Assembly (NCBI GenBank): GCA_937125285.1
Contig: CAKZLH010000374.1
Location: 1-40,202 of the forward strand
Source of the DNA: an uncultured Balneolaceae bacterium
GTDB lineage: Bacteria > Bacteroidota > Rhodothermia > Balneolales > Balneolaceae
Direction: 5' to 3'
Length of the DNA: 40,202 nucleotides
Positions 25,144 through 34,258 of this stretch are shown piece by piece. A model generated the notes under the pieces. It did no database searches, was not told the origin of the DNA, and saw only the letters and a list, made by a program, of their open reading frames with translations. Numbering within the stretch: position 1 is the stretch's first letter; each line of letters begins with the position of its first letter. Both the position numbers and the translations under genes were made by a program.

Positions 25144-28100
25144 ATGAGAAAACTATTTCCCTTTTTTTTGTTTCTGTGCTTTCTTCTAAGTGTGTCCTCT
25201 TGGAATGTTCATGCAGAGGTGAAAGAGGGTACAAGCTCTGTTTATACCTCTAATCTGGTCGAAAGTGATACATTAATAGTCCAAAAATTTTCACTATCTG
25301 ACACTTTACATATTACCATGGGGGTTGTGGTTAGTCGACTAGAGGTGCAGATATTGGATCAAAGCCGATGGAGAGTAATCAACCCTGAGCATTGGTTATG
25401 GAATCCAAATTCTGGTGATTGGTGGATTCGTCCAGAGTATCACGCTTTTTATGCAGATACCACCCAACTTCAATTCATTTACAATAAATCCAGTTTTGAA
25501 CCACGTTTCAATGACGCTGAATTATGGGCAAATAAACCACCTGAGCAGCAAGGGTATGCACTTAAACAAACGGGTAGAATATCAAGGGGTATTATCTCAG
25601 GTACCAATCAAGAAATAAGTTTGGAAAGTGGGCTCGATATTACACTGGAGGGAAATATCAGTGAGGAAACGACTTTAAAAGCCATATTGACGGATCGAAA
25701 TATACCTTTTCAACCCGATGGTACGACCCAAACCATTCGTGAATTCGATCAAGTACTCATTCAGGTTCAAAATCCTGTGTATGATCTGAAAATGGGCGAC
25801 GTGGATATTTTATTTGAAGATAATGAATTTCATCGTTTGGATAGACGTATCAAAGGGGGATATTTCGAGCGTAAAATGAATTACGCAGATGAAGCAACGG
25901 GGACCGTTAGAGGAACACTATCTACTACAAGAGGGGAATATACCAATGAACAGATTGCTGCTCTAGAAGGTGTTCAAGGTCCTTATCGAATAGGTACAGG
26001 CCGAAGTAACCTGTATTCGGTAATTCTGGCAGGTACCGAAAAAGTGTACTTGAACGGTGAGCGGCTGAAAAGAGGAGCAGATTTTGACTATACCATCGAT
26101 TATTCCTTGGGTGAAATAACCTTCACAAAACAACAATTGATCCGTCAGGAAACTCGCATATTCGTGGAATACGAATATATCGAACAAGGATACAATAGAA
26201 GTCTAATAGCTTCTGAGGCTGAAATAATGTCTAATGATCAAAGGTTTGCATTTCGTACCATGTATAGTAGGGAAGCCGACAATGATGGATTATTAGCACA
26301 ACAAATACTCTCCGATGAAGCCATATCATTGCTTCAAAATACAACGGACCCTAGTGATTTGTATGTCGACTCGGGCCGGTTGTGGGATGATGCTTCAAAT
26401 ATAGCCGTCGCTTATACTAAAAAAGATACCCTCTATATGGGTGAGTCACGTTCCGTATATGAGCATAGTAGTAGTTCAAACCGAAATAACGATAATCTCT
26501 ACAGGGTGAATTTTTCCTATTTAGGGCCGTCGCTTGGAGATTATGAACTCATTGAAGGAAGCCTCAATCAACCCATTTATCAGTGGGTTGGCCCAAATAA
26601 GGGGTCCTATGTTGCCAAAGAGCCTTTGAAGGCACCTATACAACATCAAATTCTATCTTTGGCGGGGGATTTTAGCTGGTCACCTAATCTAAAAGTTACG
26701 GCCGATTGGTCTATGAGTGACTACCAATACAATCGATTTGCTCGGGTTGAAGGTGCCTCTAAACAGGGAATGGCCTATCGGGCAGGTATTCAGTGGCAGA
26801 ATGAGGTATTCAATGCGGATCAATCCACCTTCAGTGCACAACTGCGTAGTGTAGATGTTAACTATGAGTCATCCGAACGTATTCAAGAGGTTGAATATCT
26901 AAGACTATACGATTTGGATCAAAACGTATTTCAACAACACTTAATGGGTGGAGAATGGAATTGGCAAAGGAATAATCATACCTTTGAAATAGGGATTTCT
27001 GAATTAGATGTTGGTGATGAAGCTCGTCTTAGGCAGTATGTTGCATTCAATTCAAATCAAGAGAGTCCCTGGAAGCTTAGCTATGAACAGGATTATGTTC
27101 AAAGAACCAAGTCGAGGATTAATAACGGGTATTGGTTCCGGCAAAAGGGATATTTAAATGTAAACCTGGGTGAAGCATTCTTTATTCAACCATTTGATTC
27201 GTATTCCATTGGAATGCACTTTGAACAGGAACAAAAGCTTCGGCAGTCCCTAGATTCGGATAGTTTATATCAAGGTAGTTTTCGGTTTGTGAGCTTTGGT
27301 CCTGGGATAATGGCAGATTACGATCGTTGGAGTTGGGGTATGTCTTGGCTTCTGCGAGAGGAAGAACAAGTGTTTGAAGGTAAGTGGAACCCCAGCTTGA
27401 GTATATTTGAGCAGCGTTATCACCTCTCATGGGAGACAAGACAAGGATTTACTGGGAAGCAGATGGTTCATATTCGAAATAGAAACACTGAAGATTTACC
27501 GTTTGATGAAGCCATAAAATCAACTGATCAATCTCTTTTACTTGATTCTCGTATCATTTGGGGCAAAGTAAATAAATTGGGCCAACTTCAGTGGGATTAT
27601 GAAGCACTGTCCAAGCAGCGCAGTTCGTTTAGAGAAGTTTATGTATATGTGGGTCCAGAACTTGGTCAGTATGTTTGGATTGACGATAATGAAGATCGTA
27701 TTCAACAGCTTATTGAGTTTTATCCTGAGTTAAGTCCAAATGAAGGGTCTTACATCAAAAGATTACTGCCTGGTAATAGCTACGAACCCATTGTTCAATT
27801 GAGAACTAGAATAGATTATGATTGGGAACCATTTCAAGGTATAAAATCCAATCGACCACTATTAGGTTCTTTGCAACTTAAACTAATGTTTTTACTTCGG
27901 GATGAAAATAAAAGTAATTCCCTAGATCAGATACTTCTATTCGATAAGGCGACTCTCTTTAAACAAGGGCTAAGTGTAAGCGGAGGTAAAGACCAGCGCT
28001 ATAGTTTAAGGTTTAGACCGAATGCTACTGGCCTAGAGGGTGGTGTTGAATGGCTGAAAACGGCTACAAATCATGAGCGAAATATTGAATATTTGATCAA

Positions 28101-28671
28101 TGCCCAACAATCTTTTCAAACCGACCTTTCGTATCGATGGAGCAATCAGTTAAAAAGTCGATTACTATTGACCAACAAACAGAATCTAGAGTACTCCGAT
28201 GCCCTTCGAGATAAAAATTATGCATGGTCGATGAATCAAATTCAACCTAGTATAGAATATCGCTTTAATCGATCATGGAATATGGAATTTAGTGGATTTG
28301 TCAAAAGTCTTACTAGTGATCTAGGCTATGCAAGCGATTATTTAGGAGATGAACGTGCACAAGAAGGCTTTCCTGATTTCACCTTAAATCACATTCAATT
28401 AAGTATGCATCATAGGGTTTTTATTCCAAATGGAATTCAAGCAACAGCGCAACTAGCCGTGCAGGATATCTCGAGCGATAACCAGTTGAGTTCCTACTCA
28501 GAATACAGGCTAACGGAAGGGATGGGAACGGGTAGGACAGCTAAATGGCAGATGTCAAGTTCTTATCTTTGGAACGACTGGTTAGAGATAGAATTCGATT
28601 ATTATGGTAGGACTTCCTATTTAGGGGTAGGGATTCACACAGTTCAACTCAAGCTAAGCGCCTTATTTTAA
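25144..28671 (+). CDS. Large outer-membrane beta-barrel-like protein, uncharacterised family
   Basis: This 1175-aa protein has a cleavable signal (residues 1-24, ending VHA). The N-terminal third carries motifs I associate with an uncharacterised Bacteroidota/Rhodothermota surface family that shares short stretches with SprA, the type IX translocon channel: QTGRISRGIISGTNQEISLE (142-161), TLKAILTDRNIPFQPDGTTQ (177-196), LAGTEKVYLNGERLKRGADF (295-314) and DYSLGEITFTKQQ (319-331). Residues about 350-1175 are tyrosine- and tryptophan-rich alternating strands ending in Phe, as in outer-membrane barrels. It is far smaller than SprA (about 2400 aa), so it is not that channel. It follows the DsbD gene by 51 nt. 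The function is unknown. Confidence 0.8.
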   Translation: MRKLFPFFLFLCFLLSVSSWNVHAEVKEGTSSVYTSNLVESDTLIVQKFSLSDTLHITMGVVVSRLEVQILDQSRWRVINPEHWLWNPNSGDWWIRPEYHAFYADTTQLQFIYNKSSFEPRFNDAELWANKPPEQQGYALKQTGRISRGIISGTNQEISLESGLDITLEGNISEETTLKAILTDRNIPFQPDGTTQTIREFDQVLIQVQNPVYDLKMGDVDILFEDNEFHRLDRRIKGGYFERKMNYADEATGTVRGTLSTTRGEYTNEQIAALEGVQGPYRIGTGRSNLYSVILAGTEKVYLNGERLKRGADFDYTIDYSLGEITFTKQQLIRQETRIFVEYEYIEQGYNRSLIASEAEIMSNDQRFAFRTMYSREADNDGLLAQQILSDEAISLLQNTTDPSDLYVDSGRLWDDASNIAVAYTKKDTLYMGESRSVYEHSSSSNRNNDNLYRVNFSYLGPSLGDYELIEGSLNQPIYQWVGPNKGSYVAKEPLKAPIQHQILSLAGDFSWSPNLKVTADWSMSDYQYNRFARVEGASKQGMAYRAGIQWQNEVFNADQSTFSAQLRSVDVNYESSERIQEVEYLRLYDLDQNVFQQHLMGGEWNWQRNNHTFEIGISELDVGDEARLRQYVAFNSNQESPWKLSYEQDYVQRTKSRINNGYWFRQKGYLNVNLGEAFFIQPFDSYSIGMHFEQEQKLRQSLDSDSLYQGSFRFVSFGPGIMADYDRWSWGMSWLLREEEQVFEGKWNPSLSIFEQRYHLSWETRQGFTGKQMVHIRNRNTEDLPFDEAIKSTDQSLLLDSRIIWGKVNKLGQLQWDYEALSKQRSSFREVYVYVGPELGQYVWIDDNEDRIQQLIEFYPELSPNEGSYIKRLLPGNSYEPIVQLRTRIDYDWEPFQGIKSNRPLLGSLQLKLMFLLRDENKSNSLDQILLFDKATLFKQGLSVSGGKDQRYSLRFRPNATGLEGGVEWLKTATNHERNIEYLINAQQSFQTDLSYRWSNQLKSRLLLTNKQNLEYSDALRDKNYAWSMNQIQPSIEYRFNRSWNMEFSGFVKSLTSDLGYASDYLGDERAQEGFPDFTLNHIQLSMHHRVFIPNGIQATAQLAVQDISSDNQLSSYSEYRLTEGMGTGRTAKWQMSSSYLWNDWLEIEFDYYGRTSYLGVGIHTVQLKLSALF

Positions 28672-28788: not shown

Positions 28789-28835
28789 TTTGACTCAATT
28801 TTACTGTTAAACAATAAACTATAATCGGAGTGAAC

Positions 28836-29558
28836 ATGACATCGTCGATTGCTCTCTTTTTACTTCAAGCCCCAGTAGAAGAGGGCTTCTTCAATCTCAT
28901 CGTTGAAAAATTTAACGAAGGTAATGATGGAGGATGGATGTGGCCAGTACTCATTACGCTTATTGCGGGTCTAGCCATATTTCTCGAGCGTATTATTACC
29001 CTAAACCTAGCAGACATTAACACCCGCAAATTTATTGTGAGTGTACAAGAAGCACTGCAAGAAGGCGGCATTGAAGCTGCTGAAGAGCTTTGCTCTCAAA
29101 CTCGTGGACCAGTTGCATCCGTTTTTCAAGCTGGACTTATGCGTTCTCATGAAGGTATAGACGCAGCGGAAAAAGCTATTGCGGCCTATGGTTCTATTGA
29201 AATGAGCTTCCTAGAAAGAGGCTTGGTTTGGTTATCCCTATTTATTGCTATTGCTCCACTATTTGGATTCCTCGGAACGGTAGTAGGTATGATTGAGGCA
29301 TTCGATGATATTGAAGCGGCATCTGATATCTCTCCTAGTATCGTAGCTGGTGGTATTAAAACTGCACTTTTAACCACAGCAGGTGGTCTTATTGCAGGTA
29401 TTATACTTCAGATTGGATACAACTACTGTGTGTCGAAAATTGACCGATTAATTGCTGAGATGGAAGAAAGTTCTATCACACTTATCGATTCTATTATTCT
29501 TCTCCAGGAAGGTAAACCATTGATTCCTGTTACTGAAACAACTGAATCAGAAGATTAA
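28836..29558 (+). CDS. exbB: ExbB/TolQ/MotA-type proton channel subunit
   Basis: Inner-membrane subunit that with ExbD uses the proton motive force to energise TonB or Tol systems. A first membrane segment lies at about residues 28-45 (WPVLITLIAGLAIFLERII), a cytoplasmic loop follows, and two C-terminal membrane helices include the conserved LGTVVGMIEAF and GIKTALLTTAGGL motifs that line the channel. I use the ATG at 28836 (240 aa), with CGGAG 5 nt upstream, rather than the in-frame GTG at 28830. It heads a four-gene cluster. Confidence 0.93.
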   Translation: MTSSIALFLLQAPVEEGFFNLIVEKFNEGNDGGWMWPVLITLIAGLAIFLERIITLNLADINTRKFIVSVQEALQEGGIEAAEELCSQTRGPVASVFQAGLMRSHEGIDAAEKAIAAYGSIEMSFLERGLVWLSLFIAIAPLFGFLGTVVGMIEAFDDIEAASDISPSIVAGGIKTALLTTAGGLIAGIILQIGYNYCVSKIDRLIAEMEESSITLIDSIILLQEGKPLIPVTETTESED

Positions 29559-29587: not shown

Positions 29588-29869
29588 ATGACTAGTGGAC
29601 TTATTGTACAAATCGCTGTAATTGGAACATTTGTTTTGATGGGTCTGGGTATTTTATCAATGGTTGTATCTGGTATTAAAGGACTTGTTCAAGGTAAACA
29701 AGACTTTAAACGAATCGCATTGATTTCTACACCAATCATCATATTTGCAGTTTCTTATCTTGCACTTAATGATGTTACCAAAGCAGGAGTTATGACTACA
29801 ATGGGAATGATGGCAATAATGCTTGTTTCTATTGTATTCACTGGTTTGCGTGGAACATTCAAATTTTAA
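29588..29869 (+). CDS. Small membrane protein in the exb cluster
   Basis: A 93-aa protein with three hydrophobic helices (about residues 5-28, 42-60 and 66-88) separated by a short basic loop (KGLVQGKQDFKR). It starts 29 nt after exbB with a strong AGAGGAGG sequence just upstream and ends 12 nt before exbD. It has no recognised domain. Placement between the ExbB and ExbD subunits suggests an accessory membrane component of the proton-driven complex; this is inference from context. Confidence 0.75.
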   Translation: MTSGLIVQIAVIGTFVLMGLGILSMVVSGIKGLVQGKQDFKRIALISTPIIIFAVSYLALNDVTKAGVMTTMGMMAIMLVSIVFTGLRGTFKF

Positions 29870-29881
29870 GGAGTCACGACC

Positions 29882-30424
29882 ATGATGCTTAAAAAGAAAA
29901 AAAGAGAAGGAGCGGAGATCAATGGATCTTCCATGGCAGATATTGCCTTTCTTCTACTCATTTTCTTCTTGGTTACGACTACTATCAACGTAGATACAGG
30001 TATTGGGATGGTCTTGCCACCACCTTTGGATCCTGAGCAGGAACCACCCCCCATACGTGAACGTAACCTAATGAAGATACTTGTGAATGCACAGGGTCTT
30101 GTGTTGATGGATGAAGAGCCCGTGCCCATTACTGAGGTGCGTACAAAACTCATTGAATTCATCGATAATCCTGAAGATAATGAAGAGTTGGCAGTTTCCC
30201 CTGACGCGGCCATTGTATCGCTAAAAACTCAGAGAGAAACACCATACTCCATTTATATTGATATGTTGGATGAAGTGATGGGTGCCTATAAAGATCTTAG
30301 AGACGCAGCCTCTAGGTCTAATTATGGAGTGCCTTACGATGCTCTTGCAGATGACAGCCCCCAACAGAATCAAATACAAGACATGTATCCTAAGAAAATT
30401 TCAATAGCTGAACCGGATAGTTAA
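29882..30424 (+). CDS. exbD: ExbD-type biopolymer transport protein (first copy)
   Basis: A single-span inner-membrane protein with a periplasmic domain. The cytoplasmic lysine-rich start precedes SMADIAFLLLIFFLVTTT, where Asp20 matches the proton-carrying aspartate of ExbD/TolR. At 180 aa it is a little longer than usual, with a proline-rich stretch after the helix (PPPLDPEQEPPP) and an extended C-terminus. An AGGAG sequence upstream supports the start. It overlaps nothing and is followed after 2 nt by the second ExbD. Confidence 0.93.
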   Translation: MMLKKKKREGAEINGSSMADIAFLLLIFFLVTTTINVDTGIGMVLPPPLDPEQEPPPIRERNLMKILVNAQGLVLMDEEPVPITEVRTKLIEFIDNPEDNEELAVSPDAAIVSLKTQRETPYSIYIDMLDEVMGAYKDLRDAASRSNYGVPYDALADDSPQQNQIQDMYPKKISIAEPDS

Positions 30425-30426
30425 CT

Positions 30427-30876
30427 ATGGCACATTTTAAGAAAAAGCAGGCGGGTAGTAAGCAAGAAATCCCAACATCGGCGATGCCTGATGTGGTATT
30501 CATGTTGCTCTTTTTCTTCATGGTAACTACGGTGCTTCGAGAAGTCACGTTAAAAGTAAAACTTGACTTAACGCAGGCTAGTAACATTGAAAAAATAGAG
30601 CAGAAACGACTAGTTTCATACATTTATATGGGACCTGAGCGTCTACCAGGAAATCAACTGGGTGATGATAAGGTACAGATTGATGACGCAATAGTAGATG
30701 ATATAGGTGCTATTCGTAACATTATGTATGATAAACTAATCGAAGAGCCTAAGCTAATTGTTTCCTTACGAGTAGATCAGAATTCCGAATTCGGGCTTTT
30801 GACCGATGTACAGAAAGAATTACAGCAGGCAGGTACATTTAGGATTAACTATTCAACTAAGCGACAAGCTGATTAA
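30427..30876 (+). CDS. exbD: ExbD-type biopolymer transport protein (second copy)
   Basis: A 149-aa paralogue of the preceding protein. Basic N-terminus, then SAMPDVVFMLLFFFMVTTVL with the channel aspartate at Asp22, then a periplasmic domain ending in a conserved-type strand-helix (LLTDVQKELQQAGTFRINYS). Two distinct ExbD proteins with one ExbB are common in Bacteroidota and are thought to form a mixed ExbD pair in the channel. No TonB gene follows. A terminator begins 22 nt after the stop. Confidence 0.93.
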   Translation: MAHFKKKQAGSKQEIPTSAMPDVVFMLLFFFMVTTVLREVTLKVKLDLTQASNIEKIEQKRLVSYIYMGPERLPGNQLGDDKVQIDDAIVDDIGAIRNIMYDKLIEEPKLIVSLRVDQNSEFGLLTDVQKELQQAGTFRINYSTKRQAD

Positions 30877-30898
30877 TTCTAAGAAATTGATTAGGTAT

Positions 30899-30932
30899 AA
30901 GGCATCCATGCTTTGCGTGGTTGCCTTTTTTT
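30899..30932 (+). terminator. Intrinsic terminator of the exb cluster
   Basis: AAGGCA (30899-30904) pairs with TGCCTT (30922-30927), with inner CATGC/GCGTG pairing, followed by a T-run to 30932. It separates the exb cluster from the ThiL-like gene whose ATG is at 30949. Confidence 0.8.
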
Positions 30933-30948
30933 ATATATCACTTATACT

Positions 30949-31974
30949 ATGAAATTCACTCCAATCTCTGAAATAGGTACAAAAAAGCTTCAGGCTAAAC
31001 TCTCTACTTTTATTGGTTCTAATACCTTATTAGAAAGTGACAATTACACTATTGAGTCTTTAAGATCCAAATTTAGTACTAATCACAGGCTCATTCAGCA
31101 TAGCCTTACATTTGTAGAAGGGGTTCATTTTGATATAACTTACACGCCATTTGAACACCTTGGATATAAAGCTATTAGTCTATTGTCGAATGATTTCTAT
31201 GCCCAAATGGGGCAAATCATTAGTATTGGGTGTCATTTATCCATACCAAATAGAGTCTCTGTTGAAATGATCGAGTCATTAGTAGCAGGATTAAATCAAG
31301 GATGCGTCGACAATGGATGTGCCTTGGTTGAAAAGAATGTGCAGAGTAATGCCCAGAGAATTATAATCAACATCTATGGTTTAGGGGTTACTGAAATACC
31401 TTCCAAAAAGGTGAAAGATCAAGTTAGTGAAGGTGATGCTATTTGCTTATCTGGGGATGTTGGAGCGGCCATTGCTGGTTTACGAATATTGATGAGAGAA
31501 AAAAAGTATTGGCAAGAACAGGGAGAAGGTAATTTTCAACCAGATCTGGGAGATTATAGCTATGTCGTACAACGACAGCTCATGCCTAAATCTAGAAAAG
31601 ACCTCGTGGAATTATTTGAAAAAGAGCATATATCACCCACCACAGTACGGCATCTCAATGGGGGTGTACTCAACGAGGTAGCTAGTTTATGTGAAGATTG
31701 TGGTTTAGGAGCACATATCTACCAAGCAACACTGCCTATAGCAGTAGAAACACGGCAGGTAGCAGACGAAATGGAAGAAGATGTAGATAAGTATGCGTAT
31801 TTTGGTGGTGAAGATTCTGAATTGCTTTTTACTTTACCCGAGGTAGAAGCCGATAGACTTTTTAAACTTTTTAAAGATTTTACGGTCATCGGTCGAATGA
31901 CAGATTCTAAATCTTCGTTAGTAATACAAACGGCTGAAGGTGATATCCTCAGCTATGATGACATGAGAGTATAG
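30949..31974 (+). CDS. ThiL-like protein with lost catalytic residues (probable pseudoenzyme)
   Basis: The 341-aa protein aligns by eye along its whole length with Bacteroidota thiamine-monophosphate kinase (PurM/AIR-synthase fold): FVEGVHFDITYTP (55-67), CLSGDVGAAIAGL (166-178), RQLMPKSRKDL (209-219) and FGGEDSELLFTLP (285-297) are all recognisable. The metal- and ATP-binding acids are gone: GDDAAV became SDNYTI (29-34), the TTD before VEGVHFD became QHS, VGGDTT became VEKNVQ (127-132), and MDISDGL became VRHLNGG (233-239). It therefore should not phosphorylate thiamine monophosphate. The ATG at 30949 is chosen because an upstream frame would begin inside the terminator. The reading frame is intact, which argues for a retained new role. 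It lies 94 nt before ftsH. Confidence 0.85.
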   Translation: MKFTPISEIGTKKLQAKLSTFIGSNTLLESDNYTIESLRSKFSTNHRLIQHSLTFVEGVHFDITYTPFEHLGYKAISLLSNDFYAQMGQIISIGCHLSIPNRVSVEMIESLVAGLNQGCVDNGCALVEKNVQSNAQRIIINIYGLGVTEIPSKKVKDQVSEGDAICLSGDVGAAIAGLRILMREKKYWQEQGEGNFQPDLGDYSYVVQRQLMPKSRKDLVELFEKEHISPTTVRHLNGGVLNEVASLCEDCGLGAHIYQATLPIAVETRQVADEMEEDVDKYAYFGGEDSELLFTLPEVEADRLFKLFKDFTVIGRMTDSKSSLVIQTAEGDILSYDDMRV

Positions 31975-31997: not shown

Positions 31998-32020
31998 TAT
32001 TGGCACATTTTTTGCCAATA
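31998..32020. repeat. Perfect 8-bp inverted repeat upstream of ftsH
   Basis: TATTGGCA (31998-32005) and TGCCAATA (32013-32020) are exact inverses over a 7-nt T-rich loop, 48 nt before the ftsH ATG. No T-run follows, so termination is unlikely; an operator or mRNA hairpin is possible. Confidence 0.4.
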
Positions 32021-32068: not shown

Positions 32069-34258
32069 ATGGCCGAGAAGAAGCCCTCATCAAAGAATCC
32101 ACTAAAGTCATCACTTAACAATAAAAATGGTGCGAATCCAAAATTTCCAACCTGGGGATTCTTAGTTATTATTATGTTCTTAATTGTGATTCAGTTTATG
32201 TTTCTGAATCCAGAACCCAGTAATGGAATTAAGTACAGTGAATTTCTAGACCAGGTTAAAAAGGGGTACGTCGAAGAAATTATTATCAAAAACCAAGTCA
32301 ATGTATACGGTAAATACAATGAAAGTGCTATAACTGATGGAGTAGTTAGTCCGCCTGAACAGGACAGCAGTCCACTTAATTTGCCGACTACCTTAACCGA
32401 AGAATATCGCACTTTTGTTACGACCATTTTACCTAACGATGAAATACGACCAATACTTGATGAGTATGGGGTTGAGTATGAGGTCAGAATAGAAGAAGAG
32501 TGGTTTAGCGGTGTATTTATGTGGCTCGTGATGATAGGGCTAGCAGTAGGTTTTTGGGTATTTATTTTCAGAAGAATGAACCCAGGTCAGCAGGTGTTAA
32601 ATATTGGGAAAAACAAAGCCTCACTTTATGACCAGCAAACAGAGACTAAAGTCACGTTTAAAGATGTAGCTGGATTAGATGAAGCGAAAGCCGAAGTTGA
32701 GGAAGTGGTTGAATTTCTTAAGAATCCGCAAAGGTTCACCAAGCTAGGGGGTGTATTACCCAAAGGCGTATTATTGGTGGGCCCTCCAGGAACGGGTAAA
32801 ACTCTATTAGCTAAAGCCACAGCTGGTGAAGCAAGTGTACCCTTCTTCAGTTTAAGTGGTTCTGACTTTGTGGAGATGTTCGTTGGAGTTGGTGCTGCAC
32901 GTGTGAGAGACCTTTTTAAGCAAGCCAAAGAAAAAGCTCCCTGTATTGTATTTATAGATGAAATAGATTCTATTGGTCGCTCTAGAGGGAAGGGAATGGC
33001 AATGGGCTCTAATGATGAAAGAGAAAACACCCTTAACCAGCTTTTAAGTGAAATGGACGGTTTCAATTCCGACAAGGGTGTTATTTTGATGGCAGCTACG
33101 AACCGTCCTGATATTTTGGACTCTGCTCTACTTAGACCAGGACGTTTCGATCGTCAAATTCTAATAGACAAACCGGATCTAAATGGACGGGTTGAAGTTC
33201 TAAAAGTACATGTTCAAAAGCTAAAATTGTCCAGTAGTATTGACTTACGGGTCTTAGCCTCGCAGACGCCAGGTTTTGCCGGTGCAGAATTGGCTAACTT
33301 GTGTAATGAAGCAGCTTTGATTGCAGCAAGAAGAGGGAAAAAAGCTGTAGAAATGGTGGATTTCCAAGACTCTATTGAAAAAGTAATTGCAGGTCTAGAA
33401 AGAAAGAATAAGCTCATTAGTCCTGAAGAGCGTAAAATTGTCGCATACCACGAAGCGGGTCACGCGGTAGTTGGCTGGTTTTTAGAGTACACAGATCCAG
33501 TACTCAAAGTGAGTATCGTACCTAGAGGGCTAGCCGCGCTTGGGTATACCCTTCAAACCCCATTAGAAGATCGTTTTCTAATGACGACAGAAGAACTTAA
33601 CGATAAAATTTGTGCATTGTTAGGTGGTCGAATTGCAGAGCATATTGTTTTCGGTAAAATATCCACTGGCGCACAAAATGATTTAGAGCGCATTACCAAT
33701 ATGGCATATGCCATGGTGGCAGAATATGGAATGAGTGAAGAACTTGGGTACATTTCATTGCGTGACTCGAACAATCCAGAAAATAGTTACGGGTTCAATC
33801 GTAAGTATTCCCCAGATACGTCGAATCGTATTGATGATGCGGTTCAGGCAATTATCAAGAAAAATTTTGATCGGACCCTTCAGTTACTTCAAGATCACAG
33901 AGAACAATTAGAGACCTTAGCGACCACTCTGTTAGAAAAGGAAGTCCTCAATCATCAACAACTCCGTGAACTATTGGGAGACCGACCAAAAGGTAAACAT
34001 GCCGATGGTTTATTTACCGAAGCAAAGGTGGTTGATGAGGTGATTTCAGATGAAGAATCAAATGATGAAGACCCAACCGATAAAGAGTCGATGTATGATA
34101 TAGCTTTAGACGAGCAAACAGCTGATGCTTCAACTTTAGATAACTTAGCATCAGAAGAACTTGGTGAAAATCAAAGTGCTGATGTAGAAGAAGAAAAAAA
34201 GGCTAGTAAAGAATCGAAATCCTCTGAATCCAATCCACAGGACGATCTTTTTTCATAG
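32069..34258 (+). CDS. ftsH: ATP-dependent zinc metalloprotease FtsH
   Basis: A membrane-anchored AAA+ protease that degrades damaged membrane and regulatory proteins. Two membrane helices (about residues 30-47 and 148-167) bracket a periplasmic domain; the AAA domain has Walker A GPPGTGKT (238-245), Walker B IVFIDEID and the second region of homology [20 protein letters not shown]; and the zinc-binding HEAGH (461-465) is intact. A Glu/Asp/Ser-rich tail of about 90 residues after residue 640 lengthens it to 729 aa. It lies downstream of the ThiL-like gene with a possible own promoter. Confidence 0.97.

Follow-up and report, generated by a model that had tools for sequence, protein, structure and literature searches.

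A ThiL-derived gene between exbBD and ftsH in Balneolales: a probable order-wide pseudoenzyme

The window analysed here is a 40,202-nucleotide stretch of DNA from a Balneolaceae metagenome assembly that is 87% complete with 7% contamination. Its gene at positions 30949-31974 is probably a vertically inherited Balneolales ThiL that was relocated at the base of the order and repurposed away from thiamine-monophosphate (TMP) kinase, and that now represents an order-wide pseudoenzyme. An earlier note on this DNA had seen a single odd gene with a ThiL fold and lost catalytic acids. That observation is confirmed with minor corrections. The interpretation given with it, a non-catalytic role such as ligand sensing or regulation, is only partly supported, and sensing or regulation would be a possible function. 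The loss in the window is one of several independent losses within an order-wide ThiL-like clade in which the active site had already been altered. In literature searches, no publication turned up that deals with ThiL in Balneolaceae or describes a ThiL pseudoenzyme.

Overall structure

The gene, on the forward strand like all features given below, encodes 341 residues in an intact reading frame with an ATG start codon. Both Pfam domains, AIRS and AIRS_C, were above their cut-offs, and the top NCBIfam model was TIGR01379 (thiL) with 124.7 bits, under the cut-off of 184.15 bits for this model. In the PDB, the Aquifex ThiL (AaThiL; 1vqv and 3c9r) gave the top matches. An AlphaFold2 model, calculated with 57 related sequences, was confident (pLDDT 91.2; pTM 0.90). 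When this model was compared with the PDB by Foldseek, the 17 best matches were all ThiL, followed by HypE and PurM; the E value for 3c9r was 6.9e-27. In the predicted structure the ThiL fold is complete over the whole length, as the earlier note had supposed from the intact gene and its motifs.

Like the known ThiL proteins (TIGR01379; AaThiL, 3c9r/1vqv; AbThiL, 5cc8; PaThiL, 8yks), the window protein has the two-domain PurM-type fold in full length and the EGVHFD, TGDLG, GGED, and VIG motifs, and it is an orthologue of Rhodothermales ThiL on the basis of the tree. Unlike them, it scores below the TIGR01379 cut-off and lacks the metal/ATP acids and Asp214, and its gene lies outside a thiamine locus and is present without ThiE. 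HypE, PurM, and SelD share the common fold but are weaker Foldseek matches, the window protein scoring only 32.1, 13.9, and 12.1 bits, respectively.

Active site

In the Pseudomonas enzyme (PaThiL), the metal ligands are Asp30, Asp47, Asp75, and Asp211, with Asp122; Asp214 bridges to the phosphate of TMP, and His54 is a TMP contact (PMC13254938). Residue equivalences, in PaThiL numbering, were taken from an alignment of 129 ThiL sequences; the ThiL sampling for the alignment and the tree was within the class. In this alignment, the equivalents of Asp29, Asp47, Asp122, Asp211, and Asp214 are all gone from the window protein, and the GDDAA, TTD, GGD, and DISDGL motifs are all substituted. Leu53 (31105-31107) occupies the position of Asp47 in TTD, Asn130 (31336-31338) that of Asp122 in GGD, and His235 and Gly238 (31651-31662) those of Asp211 and Asp214 in DISD. 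The equivalent of GDDAA, with Asp29 and Asp30 (metal role, PMC13254938), is SDNYTIE at residues 30-36 (31036-31056). The exact position of the GDD site is ambiguous in the window protein: MAFFT placed it at Ile35-Glu36, whereas by eye it corresponds to S30-D31-N32. In four of six members of the genus this site is Val-Ser, without an acid.

Other elements are kept. His60 (31126-31128) corresponds to the TMP contact His54 (PMC13254938). Asp82 (31192-31194), the equivalent of Asp75, is the sole metal ligand that is clearly kept, and it is Asp or Glu across the genus. The GGEDSEL motif (31804-31824) is kept in the orthologues. The earlier note was thus right about a near-total loss of catalytic acids, one ligand, Asp82, being kept. 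It had also given SDNYT in place of GDDAA and QHS in place of TTD: both motifs are indeed replaced, but the former position is ambiguous as described above, and TTD aligns with HSL, shifted by one residue, Leu53 lying seven residues before the conserved His60. The replacement of DISDGL was read correctly, although its second Asp was lost far earlier, being absent from all 102 Balneolales orthologues.

Shifted but equivalent acids were looked for in the 129-sequence alignment, and none was found besides the kept Asp82. A single mis-assembled gene was ruled out, as the same pattern is present in six genomes of the genus. Sequences that had lost at least three of the six acids are referred to as degenerate. 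Columns that intact sequences of Balneolales and Rhodothermales conserve were followed in the degenerate sequences: average retention was 17% at the nucleotide/metal columns and 82% at other columns of equal conservation (p 3e-5, uncorrected for kinship). The pattern of residue loss is therefore not due to chance, because six genomes share it and retention differs to this extent. Judged from these residues, with the metal/ATP acids gone and the fold kept, the window protein is very probably non-catalytic, as had been proposed.

Phylogeny and repeated loss of the acidic residues

The 102 ftsH-linked Balneolales sequences form one clade (SH-aLRT 100) with a long stem. The window protein groups with these orthologues, apart from Rhodothermales ThiL and from the ThiL of thi operons. 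The canonical thi-operon ThiL of Balneolales lies far outside the clade, with intact TTD, VSD, GGDT, and DISDGL motifs. Asp214 is absent from 102 of 102 ftsH-linked orthologues. Most of the clade has kept Asp29, Asp30, Asp75, Asp122, and Asp211, with Asp47 changed to Glu and Asp214 to Gln or Lys; position 47 is Glu or Asp in most intact members. No degenerate form has lost the equivalent of His54, whereas many intact members have Asp there. Conservation of R183-E184-K185-W188 is specific to Balneolales in the comparison within the class and, given this scope, is not taken as a gain.

About four to five sublineages shed most of the remaining acids independently. The degenerate groups are the genus of the window; G070, G071, G073, and G074b; G061 with G080, G037, G089, and G090, which are possibly joined; and G051. 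In addition, G079 and G047 show partial loss. A tree built without the catalytic columns required five state changes, and a single origin of the degenerate forms was rejected (p-AU 8e-11; 0.028 without G051), although several degenerate sequences are long branches, which leaves the event count approximate. The low acid count of G145 was an artefact of a truncated start. Since the two forms occupy two ftsH loci in G074, this bin is probably mixed; G070, but not G074, served as evidence of co-occurrence.

The substitutions in the intact members are those that a substrate shift predicts, and Asp82 stays Asp or Glu in the genus. These points would suit a protein that is still an enzyme, the intact members acting on a substrate different from TMP, and the degenerate ones relying on other residues or another metal scheme. 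However, the genus lacks the acids of the ATP loop, GGD, and DISD without any replacement acid at equivalent places, and the subsets of acids lost differ between lineages; continued catalysis is considered quite improbable.

Selection

Within the genus of the window, dN/dS values (Nei-Gojobori, which saturates in distant pairs) for the three closest pairs were 0.07, 0.11, and 0.20. The genomes of this genus are all metagenome or single-cell assemblies. In the closest pair, the value was 0.107 for the N-terminal half and 0.024 for the C-terminal half. Residues 161-200 and 261-280 of the C-terminal domain are as conserved in degenerate members as in intact ones, and in much of this domain the conservation in degenerate members is equal to or above that in intact members. 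Broken copies of the gene were sought in six genomes of the genus, and none was found. Judged from codon substitutions, the window gene is not a freely decaying pseudogene, because dN/dS is 0.07-0.20 within the genus, every pair being well below 1. This purifying selection agrees with the earlier view that the gene is maintained.

The values for intact orthologues are 0.013-0.066, and those of the genus are several times higher, which means that some constraint has been lost. The overall pattern fits constraint on the protein and none on catalysis. It might instead reflect a relic in slow decay, in which thiamine-importing Balneolales that use thiamine pyrophosphokinase (TPK) erode an unneeded ThiL, catalytic sites first, and the gene is sheltered by nothing but the two essential loci on either side of it. 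The raised dN/dS, the lack of ThiE in the genus, and the higher frequency of degenerate forms in small genomes (p 5e-6, uncorrected for kinship) would agree with such erosion; the excess in small genomes fits drift as well. On the other hand, the low dN/dS of every pair and of the C-terminal domain, the retention of the gene in all good genomes of the family without a broken copy in the six genomes, the 82% retention of non-catalytic conserved columns, and the persistence of degenerate forms in several independent lineages make slow decay unlikely.

Genomic locus and transcription

A ThiL-like orthologue is present in 86 of 92 genomes of the family, including all 66 good ones, and even in the 1.5-Mb genomes G089 and G090. 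The genomes of the order without a match are all less than 90% complete. Three of them (G081, G082, and G087) also lack the neighbouring ftsH locus in their assemblies, so that absence of the gene there is uninformative.

The order of the locus is exbB, a small membrane ORF, two exbD genes, the ThiL-like gene, and ftsH. It is constant in nearly all Balneolales loci examined across the order; the exceptions are truncated contigs and a few loci that miss the fast-evolving small ORF. In the window, the conserved neighbours are exbB/tolQ (28830-29558; PF01618), the first exbD (29882-30424; PF02472), the second exbD (30427-30876; PF02472), and, downstream, ftsH (32069-34258; PF01434 and PF00004), each also assigned by synteny. 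The ORF between exbB and exbD (29588-29869) encodes 93 hydrophobic residues without a Pfam match, and its place in the order is kept in nearly all Balneolales loci. An ORF of 1175 residues (25144-28671) is often kept upstream of exbB; its product has a signal-like N-terminus, matches no Pfam family, and evolves fast (28-43% identity). The placement unrelated to thiamine synthesis, pointed out in the earlier note for this one gene, is fixed throughout the order.

This gene order was not found at the Rhodothermales ThiL loci, and neither thiL nor exbD is adjacent to ftsH in Rhodothermales, except in G130. In G130, which is outside Balneolales, ThiL (L168:6080-7144) is followed by an EamA-like transporter and then by ftsH, and its acids are partly lost (STT, SN, GGQ, STG).

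A strong intrinsic terminator is predicted between the second exbD and the ThiL-like gene (30898-30932; hairpin ΔG -17.2 followed by T7). Of the 102 Balneolales orthologues, 91 have such a predicted terminator 5' of the gene, with the T-run at a median of 20 bases before the start codon; among shuffled sequences the count was 3 of 102. The terminator in the window could act as an attenuator. A sigma54-type element, TGGCAC-N5-TTGC, lies ahead of ftsH (32001-32015) and is conserved in the subclade of the window only: it is exact in 25 of 33 members, reads TTGA in the other eight, and is absent from shuffled sequences. RpoN was found in five genomes of the genus and not in four, among them G083 (98% complete). 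Because of the terminator upstream and the sigma54-type site downstream in this subclade, co-transcription with exbBD or ftsH is not assured. The ThiL-like gene may be its own transcription unit, and the simple operon argument for either neighbour is weakened by this possibility.

Thiamine metabolism

Annotation assigns to ThiL the final, essential reaction in making vitamin B1. TPK gives TPP straight from thiamine. Of 129 Balneolales genomes, only 18 had ThiE above cut-off, none of them in the genus of the window; the genome of the window, 87% complete, has only a partial match of 26 bits. TPK was above cut-off in 118 of 129 genomes, including that of the window (ORF L174:7673-8284). Of the 18 genomes with ThiE, 16 carry a separate canonical ThiL, and a search of the 87% complete window genome for a second, canonical thiL found none. 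The ftsH-linked ThiL-like protein is therefore decoupled from thiamine synthesis and kept whatever the TMP supply, because ThiE is rare, TPK is widespread, and canonical ThiL is separate in 16 of 18. It should be mentioned that in G080 (C113:10993-12624), ThiE and ThiL-like matches occur in one 674-residue frame just 3' of a TPP riboswitch, an apparent ThiE-ThiL fusion.

The genome of the window contains one TPP riboswitch, directly upstream of a TonB-dependent receptor gene (L175:7334-10036, on G000:C92); from this position, the product is probably the thiamine receptor of this auxotroph. The ThiL-like protein might then be a thiamine/TPP sensor that binds thiamine phosphates and signals to the ExbBD system powering TonB-dependent thiamine import. 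The sole riboswitch at such a receptor, exbB-exbD-exbD immediately upstream of the gene everywhere, and retention of the TMP contact in all degenerate forms would agree with this role. It is nevertheless very unlikely: the bridge to the TMP phosphate, Asp214, is gone order-wide, the His54 position is Asp in many intact members, and a conserved terminator separates the second exbD from the gene.

Functional implications

For the repurposed ThiL, the following course is proposed. The ancestral gene would have moved between exbBD and ftsH at the base of Balneolales, and the TMP-phosphate ligand Asp214 would have been lost at the base of the clade. The ancestral protein would have gained a second, non-catalytic role. 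Phosphotransfer would then have become dispensable and been shed several times, the second role surviving without catalysis. Most likely, the PurM-fold protein would serve as a protein- or ligand-binding regulator via its conserved C-terminal domain and the His60/GGED pocket, as its residue conservation suggests. Known ThiL proteins are dimers. FtsH, the neighbour kept throughout, is tentatively regarded as a possible partner by its position alone. More doubtful is an order-wide dead-kinase switch, in which the protein would regulate the FtsH protease or the ExbBD motor or act as a scaffold for one of them, kinase chemistry being dropped repeatedly because the scaffold role suffices.

A parallel is found in SPS1/SEPHS1, a selenophosphate synthetase paralogue of the PurM superfamily, which has repeatedly lost its catalytic residue while retaining a different function (PMC4561486). 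In both cases the protein is conserved despite repeated loss of catalytic residues, and the original function is borne by another gene or dispensed with. However, SPS1 arose by duplication in animals, whereas in Balneolales the acids disappeared from the vertically inherited copy, and any canonical activity resides in a separate, distant ThiL. By this analogy, the Balneolales protein is best read as a pseudoenzyme that combines residue loss with purifying selection and would work like SPS1 without being a member of that family.

Annotation pipelines may label these Balneolales genes as thiamine-phosphate kinase. The presence of ThiL is an unsafe guide to thiamine prototrophy, as in this order the protein is retained mostly where the pathway is missing and, in several lineages, after the active site has gone. 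With active sites that range from intact through half-lost to fully lost, Balneolales provide a natural series for studying other roles of the PurM fold in bacteria.
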